Shown here: positions 50,252 through 58,177 of the stretch, piece by piece
Numbering within the stretch: position 1 is the stretch's first letter
Layout of the letters: every line of letters starts with the position of its first letter
Assembly: GCA_937868015.1 (NCBI GenBank)
Contig: CALMLW010000236.1
Location: 1-64,000, forward strand
DNA from: an uncultured Synergistaceae bacterium
Lineage (GTDB): Bacteria > Synergistota > Synergistia > Synergistales > Aminiphilaceae
Direction of reading: 5' to 3'
Length of the DNA: 64,000 nucleotides
Notes under the pieces: model-generated
Told to the model about the DNA's origin: nothing
Databases searched by the model: none
Seen by the model: only the letters and a program-made list of their open reading frames with translations
Translations under genes and position numbers: made by a program

Positions 50252-52378
50252 GTGGAGAAGGTGGAAGGTCCCGCATCAATCGTTTCGGCCCAAGAAGGAT
50301 CCTTTCGGCTCACCGAAGGGTCGGCCATGGAAATCATCCTTCGCTATCTCAACGAAGTGGACCGGGCTAAAAGCCCCCAGCGGGCCTGTGCCCTGGCCAC
50401 GACCATCATAGCGGAGCAGACCCGTTACTCTCGCCCGGCCATATTCCTCTACAACCCTCGGACGGACAGCCTGGAACTCACGGCCTACGCCAACCATAAC
50501 CCCACGGCGGAACGGATTACCCGGGGCAAGGGGGTGTGCTGGCGCTCCTTTGCTTCGGAAGAGATTCAAGTGGTCAACGACGTGACCAAAGATCCGGACT
50601 ACTTCCAGGACATGTTGGATACCCAGGCGGAGCTCTCCGTGCCCATAGTCTGGCACGGCTCGGTTTTCGGCGTCCTGGACGTGGAATCGTCCCAGCGGGA
50701 CTGCTTCTCCGATGAGGACGTGCGCTTTGCTCGACTCTTGGCGGGGATCCTGGGGAGCGTCCTCTCCCACGTGGAGACGGAAACGCAGTTTCGAAAGAAC
50801 CTTGAGCGAGGGAAGATGTTTCGGGCCAACCTCATCAAGGCCCAGGAGGCCCTGAACCGCGCCCTGGAAGAAGCCAACGCCCAGAAGGGGGCGGTGGAGG
50901 AGCACGCCCGGATCCAGCGCGCCCTCATCGACGTTTCCCGCACGCTCTTCGTCTGCCGGGACGCCCGGCAGCTCTACCTCCTCATCATGGAAATTCTGGT
51001 GAGGGAGCTCGGTTTTCCCACGGTCCTCGTCTTCGGCCGAGATCACCGCGAGGCTCCCCTGTCTTGCCAGGCCTCCCTGGGCATTGAGCTTGATCTGGAG
51101 CAAGAAAGCCTCCTCATGGGGGGCTCTGGCATCGTGGGGCACGTGGTGAAGACCTTAGAGCCCTACCTCTGTAGCGATACCGCCCAGGACCCCTATTTTG
51201 ACCCCGATGACTACGGCACCCGGTCCGAGCTGGTGGTGCCCATCCGGTCGGGGGACTTCCTCTGGGGCCTCGTGGTGGCCATCGCCCGGCGCCCCGGCGC
51301 CTACACCCTCCGGGACCTCGAAACCCTCACCTTGGTGGCGGGGTTTATGTCCGTGGTGCTGGAAAACATCGCCAACCTGGACATGCTTGCCCGGGAGATC
51401 AAGCTCATGAGATTCCTCCACGGCATGGTGCACGAGCTCTCCGGGGAGCGGGACAACCGCTCCATAGCCCTGCGGATCATCGCCCTGCTGCGAGAGGCCT
51501 TTGATGACATGCTGGTGACGGTCTTCGACGTGAGAGAAGAAGGGGGAAGGATGGAGATCTTCCCCATGGCCTCCTCCGGGAGCATGGAAGAGGCCGAGGG
51601 GCTCTGGAGGGACGTGGTGCTCCGCCCGGGTCGGCTTTTCCAGTCCACGGTGGCCCAGGCGGCGACTTCCCGTAAGGTGGTGTCCGTTCCCGACACGGAT
51701 CAGGCCTCGGGCTACGTCCGAGGACACAGCGATACCCGGTCGGAGCTGAATATCCCCATCCTGCACGGAGAGCGGGTGCGGGGGGTGCTGTGCTTCGAGA
51801 GCCCCAGGCCCCGGACCTTCACCCAGGACGACGAGGAGCTCTTCGTCATCCTGGCCCGCCACCTGGGGGCCCTTTGGGCGGTGAACGACCTCTTGGACAT
51901 GACGGAGCTCAAGGCTATGCGAGATGGCCTCACGGGGATATGGAACCGTCGCTTTTTGTTCTCCTACCTTGAGGGCGATGGAGAAGACCTGGTGCGACGA
52001 GGGGGCACCCTTACCCTGGTCATGGTGGACCTGAGGCGCTTTAAATTGATAAACGACACCTATGGCCACGCCGTGGGAGACGAGGTGCTTACCACTGTGG
52101 CGGCCTTTTTTTACAAGCGATTGGAAGGAGTGGGCTTCGCGGGGCGCTATGGCGGGGACGAATTTCTCATCGTCCTTCCAGATAAAACCCTTGAGGAGGC
52201 AGAGAGGCTGGTGGAGGAGCTGGGGCAGGGCGTGAAGGAGTTGGCCTTTTCCGTCCCGGAGCTTAGGACCCAGGCGAACTTTGGCATCGCTTCCTGCCCT
52301 CGGGACGGGGTGTCCATCGTGGAGGCCTTGCGCCGGGCGGACGAACGGATGTACGAGGCCAAACGAAGGGGAACATGA
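50252..52378 (+). CDS. Triple-GAF diguanylate cyclase
   Basis: 708 residues, no membrane segment. Three GAF-like domains (about 25-175, 225-385, 395-550), the first two separated by a coiled coil (KAQEALNRALEEANAQ), lead to a GGDEF domain (~555-705) with intact active site YGGDEFLIV (~632) and DGLTGIWNRRF. Synthesises c-di-GMP in response to small molecules or redox state bound by the GAFs. Cys residues are present in GAF1 and GAF2 (KGVCWRSF, YLCSDT), but haem or Fe-S binding is not established. Start GTG 50252 with AAGGACGGGG. Stop overlaps the next start by 4 bp. Confidence 0.9.
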   Translation: MEKVEGPASIVSAQEGSFRLTEGSAMEIILRYLNEVDRAKSPQRACALATTIIAEQTRYSRPAIFLYNPRTDSLELTAYANHNPTAERITRGKGVCWRSFASEEIQVVNDVTKDPDYFQDMLDTQAELSVPIVWHGSVFGVLDVESSQRDCFSDEDVRFARLLAGILGSVLSHVETETQFRKNLERGKMFRANLIKAQEALNRALEEANAQKGAVEEHARIQRALIDVSRTLFVCRDARQLYLLIMEILVRELGFPTVLVFGRDHREAPLSCQASLGIELDLEQESLLMGGSGIVGHVVKTLEPYLCSDTAQDPYFDPDDYGTRSELVVPIRSGDFLWGLVVAIARRPGAYTLRDLETLTLVAGFMSVVLENIANLDMLAREIKLMRFLHGMVHELSGERDNRSIALRIIALLREAFDDMLVTVFDVREEGGRMEIFPMASSGSMEEAEGLWRDVVLRPGRLFQSTVAQAATSRKVVSVPDTDQASGYVRGHSDTRSELNIPILHGERVRGVLCFESPRPRTFTQDDEELFVILARHLGALWAVNDLLDMTELKAMRDGLTGIWNRRFLFSYLEGDGEDLVRRGGTLTLVMVDLRRFKLINDTYGHAVGDEVLTTVAAFFYKRLEGVGFAGRYGGDEFLIVLPDKTLEEAERLVEELGQGVKELAFSVPELRTQANFGIASCPRDGVSIVEALRRADERMYEAKRRGT

Positions 52379-53055
52379 TGGGATGGGCGATGAAAAACTG
52401 GGTAGGTTTCTTCGACGGAGGTTCCCGGGGGAATCCGGGGCCTGCGGCGGCGGGGGCGGTGCTCTTGGACGACCGGGGGGATGTGGTCTTCGAAGAGGGG
52501 CGTTTCCTGGGGCGACGGACCAATAACGAAGCGGAGTACGAGGCGTTGATCATGCTCCTGGAGGAAGTGGACCGCCGGGGTTTTTGCAAGGGCGTGGTGT
52601 TGGGGGATAGCCGCCTGGTGATCTCCCAGATGCGAGGGGAATGGAAGATTCGAGAGCCCCGATTGCGGGCCTTGGCGGAACGAGCCCGAAGCCTGGTGCG
52701 CGGAGACGTTCGTTTCGAATGGATCCCCCGGAAGGATAACGACCACGCCGATGATTTGGTGAACGAGGTCTTGGATCGCGAGGAAGAAAGGGGCCGTAGC
52801 GCTCCTCCTCGCCCCGACAGGGGTGAATTGCCGGAAGAAAAAGAAGAGTGGCGCCATGGGACCCTGAGATTGGTCTCGGACCATATCGCATTGGTGATGG
52901 GAGCCCCCGACGAGTACGTGGTGAACCTGGCAGAAGGGACCTGCTCTTGCCCAGGTTTCCAGGCCCGGGGAGATTGCGTCCACCTCCGAGAGGGGATGGA
53001 CGCGAAGCGATCTCTCGGCGCCCCGGGAAGGGGTGGAAGCGGAGCGTCCCGCTGA
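52375..53055 (+). CDS. RNase HI fused to a C-terminal SWIM-type zinc finger
   Basis: 226 residues. Residues 8-135 are RNase HI: D14 in FFDGGSRGNPG, E54 in TNNEAEYEA, D78 in LGDSRL and D126 in NDHADDLVNEVLD make the full catalytic set. A charged linker (136-165) leads to a small domain with C190-x-C192-x8-C201-x-H203 (TCSCPGF...CVHL), the SWIM zinc-finger signature. It should cut RNA in RNA/DNA hybrids; the SWIM finger probably adds nucleic-acid or protein binding. It overlaps the diguanylate cyclase as ATGA, so is translationally coupled to it. The fusion is unusual in my knowledge of RNase H architectures. Confidence 0.85.
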   Translation: MMGWAMKNWVGFFDGGSRGNPGPAAAGAVLLDDRGDVVFEEGRFLGRRTNNEAEYEALIMLLEEVDRRGFCKGVVLGDSRLVISQMRGEWKIREPRLRALAERARSLVRGDVRFEWIPRKDNDHADDLVNEVLDREEERGRSAPPRPDRGELPEEKEEWRHGTLRLVSDHIALVMGAPDEYVVNLAEGTCSCPGFQARGDCVHLREGMDAKRSLGAPGRGGSGASR

Positions 53056-53184
53056 TTTTCCGAGCCCTCTCCCGAGGGGAGAGAGGAAGGCGAAGGCTAG
53101 CTCGAAAGGGCTAGGGCCCCTGCGTCCTTTTCGAGCCCTGGGGGGGCGATGGGGGGCCAAAAAGAACCGAGGAGGGATGAAAAG

Positions 53185-54270
53185 ATGAGAAAGCGCGATG
53201 TGTGGTGGGGGGCATGGTTGTTGGTGGGGATCCTGGCGACGGGGGCCTGGGCCTTCGACCCCGTGGCTCCGGAGGAGCTCAAGCCGGGGTTCGTGTACAT
53301 CGGCCCCGTGGGAGACGGGGGATGGACCTACATGCACGAACAGGGGCGCCTGGCCATGGAGCAGGCCGTTCCCGGCGTTAAAAGCAGCATCGTGGAATCC
53401 GTGCCCGAGGGCCCCGATTCCGCCCGGGTGCTGGAGACCTTTGCCCGGAACGGCTCTAAGCTGATCTTCGCCACGTCCTTTGGGTACATGGACTTCGTCA
53501 TGGACGTGGCCAAGAAATTCCCCGACGTGGTCTTCATGCACTGCTCGGGGTACAAGACCGCTCCCAACGTGGGGGTGTACTTCGGGCGCATGTACCAGGC
53601 CCGGTACCTTTCTGGCCTGGTGGCGGGAAAGATGACCAAAAAGAACGTCATCGGCTTTGTGGCGGCCCATCCCATCCCCGAAGTGGTGCGGGGCATCAAC
53701 GCCTTCACCCGGGGGGTGCGCCGCGCTAATCCCGACGCCACGGTACGGGTGGTATGGCTCTTCTCCTGGTTCGATCCGGGCAAGGAAAAGGAAGCGACCA
53801 AGGCCTTGGTGGACGCCGGGGCAGACGTCATCGCCATGCACGCCGACACCGGAGCGGCTCCCCAGGCGGCGGAGGAGTCGGGGGTCTACGTGGTGGGGTA
53901 CAACAACGACATGAGCCAGTATGCCCCCACGAAGCACCTCACGGCCCCCATCTGGAACTGGGGCATGATCTACACGGCGGCGGCCCAGGAAGTGATCGCC
54001 GGCACCTGGAAGAGCACTTCCCAGTGGCCGGGGCTCAAGGACGGTATGGTGGGCCTCGCCCCCTACGGCAAGGATGTCCCCGAAGAGGTAAAGGCCTTGG
54101 TGGAAGAAGAGAAGGCCAAGATCGTCGGGGGTACCTGGGACGTCTTCACGGGCCCCGTGAAGGATCAGAGCGGCACCGTGCGGGTCCCCGAGGGAACCAC
54201 CATGACGGATGCGGAGATGCTCGCCTTCGATTGGTTCGTGGAGGGCGTGGAGGGCGAGGTGCCGAAGTAG
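53185..54270 (+). CDS. BMP-family substrate-binding protein (nucleoside type)
   Basis: 361 residues, signal peptide WWGAWLLVGILATGAWA without a lipobox Cys, unlike the PnrA/Med lipoproteins. GPVGDGGWTYMHEQGR, ATSFGYMDF and HCSGYKTAPNVGVYFGRMYQ belong to the basic membrane protein (BMP) family that binds purine nucleosides or related ligands. Start ATG 53185 follows GAGGAGGG. The 129-bp gap before it holds two short hairpins (about 53068-53087 and 53095-53115). Followed, after a terminator-like hairpin, by the matching ATPase and permeases. Confidence 0.9.
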   Translation: MRKRDVWWGAWLLVGILATGAWAFDPVAPEELKPGFVYIGPVGDGGWTYMHEQGRLAMEQAVPGVKSSIVESVPEGPDSARVLETFARNGSKLIFATSFGYMDFVMDVAKKFPDVVFMHCSGYKTAPNVGVYFGRMYQARYLSGLVAGKMTKKNVIGFVAAHPIPEVVRGINAFTRGVRRANPDATVRVVWLFSWFDPGKEKEATKALVDAGADVIAMHADTGAAPQAAEESGVYVVGYNNDMSQYAPTKHLTAPIWNWGMIYTAAAQEVIAGTWKSTSQWPGLKDGMVGLAPYGKDVPEEVKALVEEEKAKIVGGTWDVFTGPVKDQSGTVRVPEGTTMTDAEMLAFDWFVEGVEGEVPK

Positions 54271-54351
54271 GGGGGAAGCGCCGAAGGCGAGACCGTCCCC
54301 GGGAGAGATCTTTTCCCGGCGGGGCGGCGGCGCGACGGTCGCCGGAGCCTG

Positions 54352-54399
54352 AGCCCAGGGTGGAGCCTCGGAAAAAGAGGCTTCCCCCCTGGGCTTTTT
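54352..54399 (+). terminator. Intrinsic terminator between binding protein and ABC ATPase genes
   Basis: AGCCCAGGG ... CCCTGGGCT (54352-54360 with 54387-54395) plus inner GAGCCTC/GAGGCTT pairing, then TTTTT. Probably lets the binding protein be made in excess, with partial read-through or a separate promoter for the transporter. The 282-bp gap (54271-54552) shows nothing else clear. Confidence 0.7.
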
Positions 54400-54552
54400 G
54401 ATCGGTGGCCTCGGGGCGCTCTCGAAGCCCCCCTGGTCCGCTGGTCCGGGGGGACTGCGGTTGAGGTTTCCGCAGGACTCCGTGCGAAAGCCGCCGAGAT
54501 GTGGTACTCTGGCGCGGTGTACGCCATGCCGGGGAAAGAGCGGAGGAGTGCC

Positions 54553-56103
54553 ATGACGGAGGCGGAGCGGACCCTGGTGAGCATGCGGGGCATAGTCAAA
54601 TCCTTCCTGGGGGTTCGGGCGAACGACGATGTGGCCTTCGACCTGAGGGCCGGGGAGATTCACACCCTGTTGGGGGAGAATGGGGCGGGCAAGAGCACTC
54701 TCATGAACGTGCTCTGCGGGCTCTACACCCCCGAGGCGGGGTGCATCTTTGTCGACGGAAAAGAGCACTTCTTTCGGTCCCCTTCGGATGCCATCGCCGT
54801 GGGCATCGGCATGGTCCATCAGCACTTTCTCCTGGTGCCCGTCCTGACGGTATGGGAGAATATGATCCTGGGGGATCGGGCCATCCCCTCCGTCATCCCC
54901 CGGAAGAAGGTCTGCCGTCGCATCGAAGAGCTATCGACCCAATACGGCCTGGCGGTGGATCCGGAGGCGAGAATTTGGCAGCTTTCGGTGGGAGAACAGC
55001 AACGGGTGGCCATCCTCCGGGCGCTCTACCGGGGGGCCCGGACCCTCATCCTGGACGAACCCACGGCGGTGCTGACGCCCCAAGAGGCCCGGGCCCTCTT
55101 TTCCACCCTCCGGAGGATGGCGGAGGAAGGACACGGCGTGGTCTTCATATCGCACAAGCTGGACGAAGTCATGGCCCTCTCCTCCCGGGTGACGATTCTC
55201 CGCAAAGGCCGAGTCGTCGGCACCTGGCGGGCGGGAGAGATCTCCAAGGCCGCCCTGGCGGAGCAGATGGTGGGGTACCAAGTACCCCGTTCCGAGAATC
55301 CGTCTCCCCGGGGCGGAGAGGAGACCCTCCTGGAAGGGCGGGGCCTGGTGGTGCAAAGCGATCGCCACCTTCCTGCAGTCCGGGGGATATCGTTGGAGTT
55401 GCGTCGGGGGGAGATCCTGGGATTGGCGGGGGTGGCGGGCAACGGCCAGAGGGAGCTCTGCGAAGCCCTGGTGGGACTCCGCCCTCTGGAGGCGGGGGAA
55501 TTGACCCTCCGGGGGCGAAGGGTCACGGGGGCTCCCCCCCGGATCTTCCAGCGCCAGGGGGTGAGTTACGTCCCCGCCGATCGCATGGGGATGGGCCTCG
55601 TGGGGAACATGAACTTACGAGAGAACGTGGCGTTGCGGCACTACTGGCGCGAGGAATTTTCCCGGTGGAAAGAGATCCTGCGCTGGGACGTCTTGGGGGC
55701 CTTCACCGAAGAGCTGGTGCGACGCTTTCGGGTTCAGACCCTTTCCTGCGACGTGGCGGTGCGGACCCTGTCGGGGGGAAATCTGCAAAAACTGATGCTG
55801 GCCCGGGAGCTGGGCCTGCTCCCCTCCATATTGGTGGTACAGGAGCCCACCTGGGGGCTCGATGTGGGGGCCACCCAGTACGTGCGGGACCAGATCCTGG
55901 AGGCCCGAAACCGGGGAGCGGCGGTCCTTTTGGCTTCGGAGGACCTAGAAGAGATCTTTGCCCTGAGCGACCGGGTGGCGGTGATCCACCAGGGGCGCCT
56001 CATGGGGGTCTCCGATAACCCCCGGGATCTGGGAGAGGAGCGCGTGGGGCTCATGATGGCGGGCACGCCCCTGGGGGCGGAGAGGGGGGAAGGTCATGCC
56101 TAG
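54553..56103 (+). CDS. Nucleoside-type ABC transporter ATPase (double ATP-binding)
   Basis: 516 residues with two ABC domains in one chain. Domain 1: GENGAGKSTLMN, QLSVGEQQRVAI, LILDEPTAVLTP. Domain 2: the Walker A is degenerate (GVAGNGQRELCEAL, no GKS/T), with signature TLSGGNLQKLML and QEPTWGLDVGA. This is the normal pattern for the BMP/ribose-like importers (YufO/RbsA type). Energises the two permeases downstream. ATG 54553 is chosen with GGAGGAG upstream; overlaps the permease by 8 bp. Confidence 0.93.
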   Translation: MTEAERTLVSMRGIVKSFLGVRANDDVAFDLRAGEIHTLLGENGAGKSTLMNVLCGLYTPEAGCIFVDGKEHFFRSPSDAIAVGIGMVHQHFLLVPVLTVWENMILGDRAIPSVIPRKKVCRRIEELSTQYGLAVDPEARIWQLSVGEQQRVAILRALYRGARTLILDEPTAVLTPQEARALFSTLRRMAEEGHGVVFISHKLDEVMALSSRVTILRKGRVVGTWRAGEISKAALAEQMVGYQVPRSENPSPRGGEETLLEGRGLVVQSDRHLPAVRGISLELRRGEILGLAGVAGNGQRELCEALVGLRPLEAGELTLRGRRVTGAPPRIFQRQGVSYVPADRMGMGLVGNMNLRENVALRHYWREEFSRWKEILRWDVLGAFTEELVRRFRVQTLSCDVAVRTLSGGNLQKLMLARELGLLPSILVVQEPTWGLDVGATQYVRDQILEARNRGAAVLLASEDLEEIFALSDRVAVIHQGRLMGVSDNPRDLGEERVGLMMAGTPLGAERGEGHA

Positions 56104-57166
56104 GCTATGGCTGGAGAAAAGAAAAGATATCCCCTGGTGGATCGGCGGAACCCTGTCCGTGCTTTCCGTGATCCTCGCCCTGGGGGCGGGGGGAGGGCTG
56201 CTCCTGGCGCTGGGAGTATCCCCCTGGGAGGCCTACGTCACCATGTTTCGAGGGGCCCTAGGAAATTGGTATGGCCTCAGCGAAACGGTGGTGAAGGCCA
56301 TCCCCCTGGCCATGGCGGGACTGGCGGTGTCCCTGGCCTTTCGCATGCAGGTGTGGAACATTGGTGCCGAAGGGCAGATCCTCCTGGGGGCCCTGGCCAC
56401 GGCGGCGACGGTGCGCTACGCCTTTGTAGATAATTTTTTTGTCATGCTCTTCCTCATGATGCTCTCGGCGGCCCTGGCCGGGGGGCTCTGGGGAGCCCTG
56501 GCGGGATGGCTCAAAGGGCGATGGCGAGTGAACGAGATCATCTCCACCCTCATGATGAACTACATCGCTCTCCACACGGTGGATTACTTCATCTACGGCC
56601 CCTGGCGCGACCCTGCCAGCCTGGGCTTTCCCATGACCGCTCCCTTCCCTCCGGCGGCTCGATTGCCCCTTTTTCTCGACACCCGAGTCCATCTGGGGAT
56701 CTTTTTTGCTCTCATCCTGGCCGGAGCCCTCTATTTCTTTTTCCGATGGACCCGGTGGGGCTTCGAGGTGCGAGTGCTGGGGGAAAACCCGCAGGTGGCC
56801 CACTATGCGGGGATCCCCTACGTGAGGAACGTGGTGCTCCTCATGTTTTTTTCCGGAGCCCTCGCGGGGCTGGCAGGCATGGGAGAGATCGCCGGACTTC
56901 AAGGGCGCATGCAGCCCGGCTTCTCCCCGGGATATGGCTACACGGCCATCATCGTGGCGTGGTTGGCCCGGCTGAACCCGGGGGCCATCCTGGGCGTGGC
57001 CTTTTTTATGGGGGCCCTGCTGGTGGGAGGAGACACGCTGCAGGTGGTCCTGCGCCTGCCCCTGGCGAGCACCCACATCATCCAGGGATGCATCCTCATC
57101 TTTCTCCTAGGGGGAGACGTGTGGCGCACCCATCGGATTCGCCTATTTCGGGACAAAAAATGTTGA
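56096..57166 (+). CDS. Nucleoside-type ABC transporter permease 1
   Basis: 356 residues, eight or more hydrophobic helices; BPD_transp_2 family. VWNIGAEGQILLGALAT is the conserved cytoplasmic loop that contacts the ATPase, and NEIISTLMMNYIA is typical of YufP-like permeases. Forms a heterodimer with the second permease 78 bp downstream. Confidence 0.92.
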   Translation: MPRLWLEKRKDIPWWIGGTLSVLSVILALGAGGGLLLALGVSPWEAYVTMFRGALGNWYGLSETVVKAIPLAMAGLAVSLAFRMQVWNIGAEGQILLGALATAATVRYAFVDNFFVMLFLMMLSAALAGGLWGALAGWLKGRWRVNEIISTLMMNYIALHTVDYFIYGPWRDPASLGFPMTAPFPPAARLPLFLDTRVHLGIFFALILAGALYFFFRWTRWGFEVRVLGENPQVAHYAGIPYVRNVVLLMFFSGALAGLAGMGEIAGLQGRMQPGFSPGYGYTAIIVAWLARLNPGAILGVAFFMGALLVGGDTLQVVLRLPLASTHIIQGCILIFLLGGDVWRTHRIRLFRDKKC

Positions 57167-57244
57167 TTTCGGGGCCCTTGCTCGACCGAGGCCCCCTAAA
57201 AGGGAAGGTTTTGGCGGCGATCGCCGCATGGAGGGAGTGATCTC

Positions 57245-58177
57245 GTGGAGTACTTGATACCCATCATGGCGGCGGCGGTGCGAAGCGGCACGCCGATCCT
57301 CTTTGCCACCCTGGGGGAGCTCCTTACGGAACGGGTGGGGGTCATGAACCTGGGATTGGAAGGGATCATGCTCATGGGGTCCCTCTCGGGGTTCTGGGGA
57401 GCGCTCGTCTTTTCCAACCCCTGGGCGGGGATCGCCTTGGCGGTATTGGTGGGGATGGCCCTTTCGGCGCTACACGCCGTACTTTGCGTTTCCTTAGGGG
57501 CAAACCAGGTGGTGAGCGGCCTGGCCCTGGCCATGTTCGGCACGGGAACCAGTGCTTTGCTGGGGAAAAACCTGGTGGGAGTCACCATTCCCGGCCTTCC
57601 GGCGGCTCCCCTGCCGGGATTGGCGGAGTTGCCCTGGGTGGGGCCCATCCTCTTTTCCCACGACGTGCTGGTCTACGGGGGTTTTATTCTCACCGCCTTC
57701 CTGGCGTGGTTTTTGTATTTCACCCGGGGGGGGCTGAACCTCAGGGCCGCAGGAGAGGCTCCTCGGGTGGTGGATGCGGCGGGGCTGTCGGCGGTGCGCC
57801 TCCGTTACCTTTACACCATCTTGGGGGGGGGCCTGGTGGGGCTCGGGGGGGCGTACATGTCCGTGGTCTATACTAAGATGTGGGCGGAGATGATGACCGC
57901 CGGGAGGGGATGGATCGCCCTGGCCCTGGTGATCTTCGGCCTATGGCACCCGGTGCGTAGCGCCCTGGGAGCCTACTTCTTCGGGGGTGTGGGGGCATTG
58001 CAGCTTCGCATGCAGGCCGGGGGCACCACGGTGCCCGCGCCCCTCCTCATGATGTTGCCCTATGTGATGACCATCGCGGTCCTTTTTGTCATCGCGGTCC
58101 GCAAGGGATATGCCGTGTCGCTGGGGGCTCCCCGCTCTCTGGGAGTACCCTATCACCGGGAAGAAAGGGATGGTTGA
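57245..58177 (+). CDS. Nucleoside-type ABC transporter permease 2
   Basis: 310 residues, polytopic; YufQ-like second permease of the BMP transporter. TLGELLTERVGVMNLGLEGIMLMGS and LNLRAAGEAPRVVDAAG are family blocks. Start GTG 57245 after GGAGTGATCTC. Its stop is 2 bp before the amidohydrolase start region, so the five genes from the ATPase to the dipeptidase look like one transcript. Confidence 0.92.
   Translation: MEYLIPIMAAAVRSGTPILFATLGELLTERVGVMNLGLEGIMLMGSLSGFWGALVFSNPWAGIALAVLVGMALSALHAVLCVSLGANQVVSGLALAMFGTGTSALLGKNLVGVTIPGLPAAPLPGLAELPWVGPILFSHDVLVYGGFILTAFLAWFLYFTRGGLNLRAAGEAPRVVDAAGLSAVRLRYLYTILGGGLVGLGGAYMSVVYTKMWAEMMTAGRGWIALALVIFGLWHPVRSALGAYFFGGVGALQLRMQAGGTTVPAPLLMMLPYVMTIAVLFVIAVRKGYAVSLGAPRSLGVPYHREERDG

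Follow-up and report, generated by a model that had tools for sequence, protein, structure and literature searches.

An RNase HI carrying a C-terminal SWIM zinc finger is encoded at positions 52375–53055 (forward strand) of the window, the stretch of 64,000 nucleotides from an uncultured Synergistaceae bacterium that was analysed here. Enzymes of the RNase HI family cut RNA out of RNA-DNA hybrids. The 226-residue fusion is real, as the original prediction held: it forms one open reading frame, matches the Pfam families RVT_3, RNase_H and SWIM, with the RNase H and SWIM matches above cut-offs, and has orthologues. The enzyme family is a known one; its combination with this finger is conserved and apparently undescribed. 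A full-text search of the open literature, outside which most subscription journals lie, found no paper on an RNase H with a SWIM domain, in keeping with the claim that a SWIM finger at this end of RNase HI is unusual. The architecture is probably already listed by automatic Pfam/InterPro annotation.

The catalytic domain occupies residues 10–134 (52402–52776, forward strand) and lacks the basic protrusion of the E. coli type. Matches to PF13456 (3.4e-20) and PF00075 (5.3e-8) span residues 10–131 and exceed the curated Pfam cut-offs. The catalytic residues D14, E54, D78 and D126 were found where they had been predicted, and these, together with the zinc ligands C190, C192, C201 and H203, are invariant in 20 orthologues, so the C-terminal motif is not a chance cluster of cysteines. 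Orthologues at 39–51% identity retain every catalytic residue and every ligand; conservation of the C-terminal cysteines, on which the original prediction depended, is thus established. The AlphaFold model of the protein has a mean pLDDT of 88.6, with 96–98 over the RNase H fold, which superposes on Halobacterium RNase H1 (4e19_A) with an rmsd of 0.9 Å and a TM-score of 0.94 (target length). The protein is predicted to cleave RNA in RNA-DNA hybrids.

Three in-frame ATG codons, at 52375, 52378 and 52390, are candidate starts. The orthologues favour 52390, in that their DG motif is preceded by 5–8 residues; a Shine-Dalgarno-like AAGGGG suits 52375 or 52378 better than 52390.

The best solved relatives of the catalytic domain are Halobacterium RNase H1, LC11-RNase H1 and the N-terminal domain of Rv2228c. 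With Sulfolobus tokodaii RNase HI (2ehg), these structures (4e19, 3u3g and 3hst) share the fold, the DEDD residues and the absence of a basic protrusion with the window protein. To our knowledge none of these four proteins of the protrusion-less subgroup carries a SWIM domain. E. coli-type RnhA, in contrast, has the basic protrusion between its last two catalytic aspartates: in the window protein the gap from D78 to D126 is 48 residues, against 64 in E. coli RNase HI, which leaves 16 residues fewer in the protrusion region. No N-terminal hybrid-binding domain was found by Pfam, and only 13 residues precede the first catalytic aspartate. RNases H1 with such a domain (e.g., that of Bacillus halodurans) resemble the fusion in bearing an accessory domain on RNase HI, usually in one copy per genome, but their accessory domain is an HBD/dsRHbd and not a SWIM finger. 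The hybrid-binding domain of B. halodurans RNase HI was proposed to compensate for the missing basic protrusion, and C-terminal dsRHbd domains occur in Gloeobacter, Bdellovibrio and Myxococcus (PMC1950709). The mycobacterial RNase H-CobC proteins Rv2228c and MSMEG_4305 belong to the same RNase HI subgroup and are likewise C-terminal fusions, whereas the window protein has no phosphatase domain. Its best NCBIfam match, NF005567, reaches 125 bits, below the cut-off of 326, and covers only its first 138 positions.

The catalytic domain is joined to the SWIM module by a low-confidence linker of variable length (about residues 135–160; 52777–52854, forward strand), with pLDDT below 50 at residues 149–159. 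Since linker length varies from 2 to 36 residues among orthologues, the module is probably tethered and not packed at a fixed interface. The module itself (residues 161–215; 52855–53019, forward strand) is modelled as three strands, the CxC, a helix, the CxH and a second helix, and modelled alone it is a compact three-strand/two-helix unit with a pLDDT of 89. PF04434 matches residues 181–204 and scores 21.3 bits over the full protein, against a cut-off of 19.6; run alone, the module scores 24.4 bits, and 22 of 24 orthologous modules are matched. The zinc-ligand motif C190-x-C192-x8-C201-x-H203 (52942–52983, forward strand) lies at its predicted place. Twenty-four diverse SWIM modules, some of them from a Firmicute and from two gammaproteobacterial elements, share no invariant column apart from the four ligands, and the window module is 19–36% identical to the others. 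Such invariance across phyla reads as the sign of selection on the metal site, and the module is predicted to bind zinc. No cysteine outside the SWIM module is invariant in the 20 orthologues.

SWIM domains of SNF2 helicases, transposases and Shu2/SWS1 have the CxC-xn-CxH pattern in common with the module but occur in other contexts, whereas here the domain is attached to RNase HI and has a fixed x8 spacing. A Foldseek search with the 58-residue model of the module returned no solved structure below E = 0.8. The closest SWIM-type match of the SWIM profile in the PDB was Shu2 of the Shu complex, which was non-significant (E = 0.33), and the module of Peptococcaceae bacterium CEB3 weakly matches an Snf2 family. 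We know of no well-defined molecular role for SWIM domains in bacteria so far.

A profile search recovered full-length matches extending through the SWIM module in 46 of 188 Synergistota genomes, with one more cut by a contig edge, and CxC-x8-CxH was read directly in 39 genomes of the phylum, as well as in a Peptococcaceae genome, in Rheinheimera and on an Alteromonas plasmid. In one Synergistota family (f5, about 47 genomes) the same RNase H stops right after the catalytic domain, and a classical RnhA takes the place of the fusion in two large genus groups (g5 and g11). No SWIM-bearing genome contains more than one PF00075 match, and a single match to PF01351 (RNase HII/HIII) was found in every one of 41 relatives searched. 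A host of the fusion thus has no other detectable RNase HI, and one gene of the RNase HII family besides. This argues that RNase HI-SWIM is probably the housekeeping RNase HI of these cells. The types of RNase HI are mutually exclusive among genomes, which resembles the exclusion described by Kochiwa et al. (PMC1950709).

Outside Synergistota the fusion is sporadic, with at least three lineages; the contig scan covered the 80 best loci, and further lineages may exist beyond these. It was found in one of 83 genomes of its class (Peptococcaceae bacterium CEB3), in one of 395 genomes sampled from its order (Rheinheimera hassiensis) and on a plasmid of Alteromonas mediterranea. On this plasmid (strain 615, CP004847; L191:7995-9333) the gene is followed by one for SSB, inside a conjugation region, and Rheinheimera has a gene for RecT at a distance of about 4 kb. 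CEB3 also has an isolated 29-residue SWIM fragment (G188:C52:49319-49399), 63% identical to the tail of its own RNase HI and perhaps the remnant of a second copy. In three Phycisphaerae loci of the same RNase HI family (L050, L053 and L069) a C-terminal CPxCG-like, zinc-ribbon-like motif replaces the SWIM module, followed in two of them by CxCG. A viral origin was rejected, as no SWIM-tailed RNase H was present in 160 rows from two overlapping viral-contig scans and a phage collection. A defence role was also rejected, there being no PADLOC match.

The history of the fusion was reconstructed from a tree of the RNase H domain with 65 rows, which includes CEB3 and Rheinheimera and leaves out the Alteromonas row. 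The SWIM-bearing proteins, including those of CEB3 and Rheinheimera, form one clade together with the SWIM-less f5 (99/91), and f5 is the sister of a SWIM-bearing family, f7 (98/96). Rheinheimera sits on a long branch and its placement is unsure. Three state changes suffice for SWIM on this tree, and the distribution is best read as a single gain and two losses, one of them in f5 with its roughly 47 sampled genomes. No SWIM remnants were found downstream of the f5 RNase H genes.

By a modest balance of probability, we favour a role in which the SWIM module would hold RNase HI on its nucleic-acid substrate, with the neighbouring GGDEF gene being incidental. The finger would tether the enzyme to the hybrid itself, or to neighbouring single or double strands, and so would be the C-terminal counterpart of the hybrid-binding domain that other RNases H1 have at their N-terminus. 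Binding of nucleic acid by the module, and an effect of this on the enzyme, are what we infer. The charge of the zinc loop fits such contact: its nine non-ligand residues have a mean net charge of +2.2 and are positive in 40 of 50 rows, and a lysine or arginine precedes the ligand histidine in 37 of the 50 (some rows being near-copies), unlike the RNase H domain, which is about neutral. The SSB gene beside the fusion in Alteromonas, and RecT near it in Rheinheimera, provide a setting of DNA replication or recombination. Against tethering, the zinc loop of the window protein has a net charge of 0, the whole module also averages 0, and the structure search retrieved no solved SWIM. The SWIM module is dispensable in some lineages, as f5 lost it, and the RNase H of f5 has not become more basic (p = 0.26); no charge compensation is visible there, and the idea of compensation finds no backing in that family. 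The mycobacterial CobC deletion described below (PMC7466739) also counts against tethering. A wider form of the proposal, in which SWIM would be a second, independently evolved domain for recognition of hybrids or forks, replacing the HBD or basic protrusion in much of the phylum and spread between phyla by mobile elements, is put forward only tentatively.

The SWIM module may instead serve for docking to proteins, bringing RNase HI to a partner in replication or recombination such as SSB, a RecA/RecT-type protein or a polymerase, which we consider somewhat unlikely. In the eukaryotic Shu complex, SWIM proteins work with recombinase paralogues. The nearest, non-significant PDB match to Shu2 points in this direction, as do the SSB and RecT genes beside or near the fusion in mobile elements and the free variation of the module outside its four ligands. 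No neighbour is conserved in Synergistota, however, and the basic zinc loop would suit nucleic acid equally well.

It is improbable that drift fixed the module as a passenger with little or no selective effect, comparable to the CobC domain of Rv2228c and MSMEG_4305. When MSMEG_4305 was deprived of its C-terminal CobC domain, growth hardly changed and hybrid levels in vivo did not rise; that fusion was ascribed to drift (PMC7466739), which gives a precedent to set beside the loss of SWIM in f5 with no visible compensation. Passenger status is difficult to reconcile with four ligands that stay invariant at 19–36% identity across phyla, and with only two losses on the tree.

The original prediction went further and joined the fusion to the gene directly upstream (50252–52378, forward strand), raising the possibility that R-loop or RNA processing is tied to a signalling state. 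Pfam confirms that this gene encodes a GAF-GAF-GAF-GGDEF diguanylate cyclase, whereas the 4-base ATGA overlap between the two genes holds only if the fusion starts at 52375. Neighbourhoods were compared by ORF clustering around 23 loci and with HMMs, about 85 loci being examined altogether. The clustering revealed no neighbour of the RNase HI gene conserved beyond close relatives, and the cyclase gene is not conserved upstream of the orthologues. Adjacent GGDEF or HD-GYP genes were seen only in the window, in f7 and in one SWIM-less termite-gut genome. Both f7 genomes (L248:7469-9700 and L249) have a PAS-HD-GYP gene upstream with an ATGA overlap with RNase HI-SWIM; its product occupies the same place as the cyclase of the window and is non-homologous to it. 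In the window's own family, two genomes (G001 and G003) have a divergent gene for a PLP enzyme upstream and a REC-PAS protein downstream, and a third (G002) has a REC-PAS-GGDEF gene about 1.4 kb downstream. Elsewhere the neighbours are RlmN, NrdD, RmlD-like, MFS or ABC genes, some of them named by eye only. In Synergistaceae bacterium Lab288P3bin103 (L043:3756-5393) a SWIM-less RNase HI, from residue 422, is in one open frame whose N-terminal portion by eye reads like argininosuccinate lyase, and two GGDEF ORFs lie downstream. Downstream of the fusion in the window (53149–58177) follow a Bmp/PnrA-like binding protein, a putative ABC ATPase and two putative permeases, of which only the first was run against Pfam and the others were assigned by reading.

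The window's genome of 2.4 Mb has 13 GGDEF and 13 HD-GYP matches over cut-offs, so that these genes would make up about 1% of the total. At this frequency about one adjacency is expected by chance over several dozen genomes, against three independent ones seen (the window, f7 and L043), which is close to chance and establishes no link. A functional unit of RNase HI-SWIM and GAF-GGDEF, joining R-loop or RNA processing to c-di-GMP, is very improbable and the functional link is not supported: the possible overlap in the window, the overlapping gene in f7 and the two GGDEF ORFs in L043 speak for it, but other lineages, including members of the window's own family, have no such neighbour, the upstream partners are mutually non-homologous, and a housekeeping role is likelier. 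The GGDEF gene is almost certainly an incidental neighbour. Just as improbable is a zinc site acting as a redox or zinc sensor and so regulating RNase HI in these bacteria, most of which are anaerobic. Oxidants could in principle be sensed by a site rich in thiolates on such a flexible tail, but no cysteine outside SWIM is invariant.

Accessory domains decide how an RNase H finds its substrate. Several families of Synergistota seem to depend on just one RNase HI, which has a SWIM module instead of a hybrid-binding domain, and the sister families f7, with the module, and f5, without it, offer a clean natural comparison of the effect of the tail.
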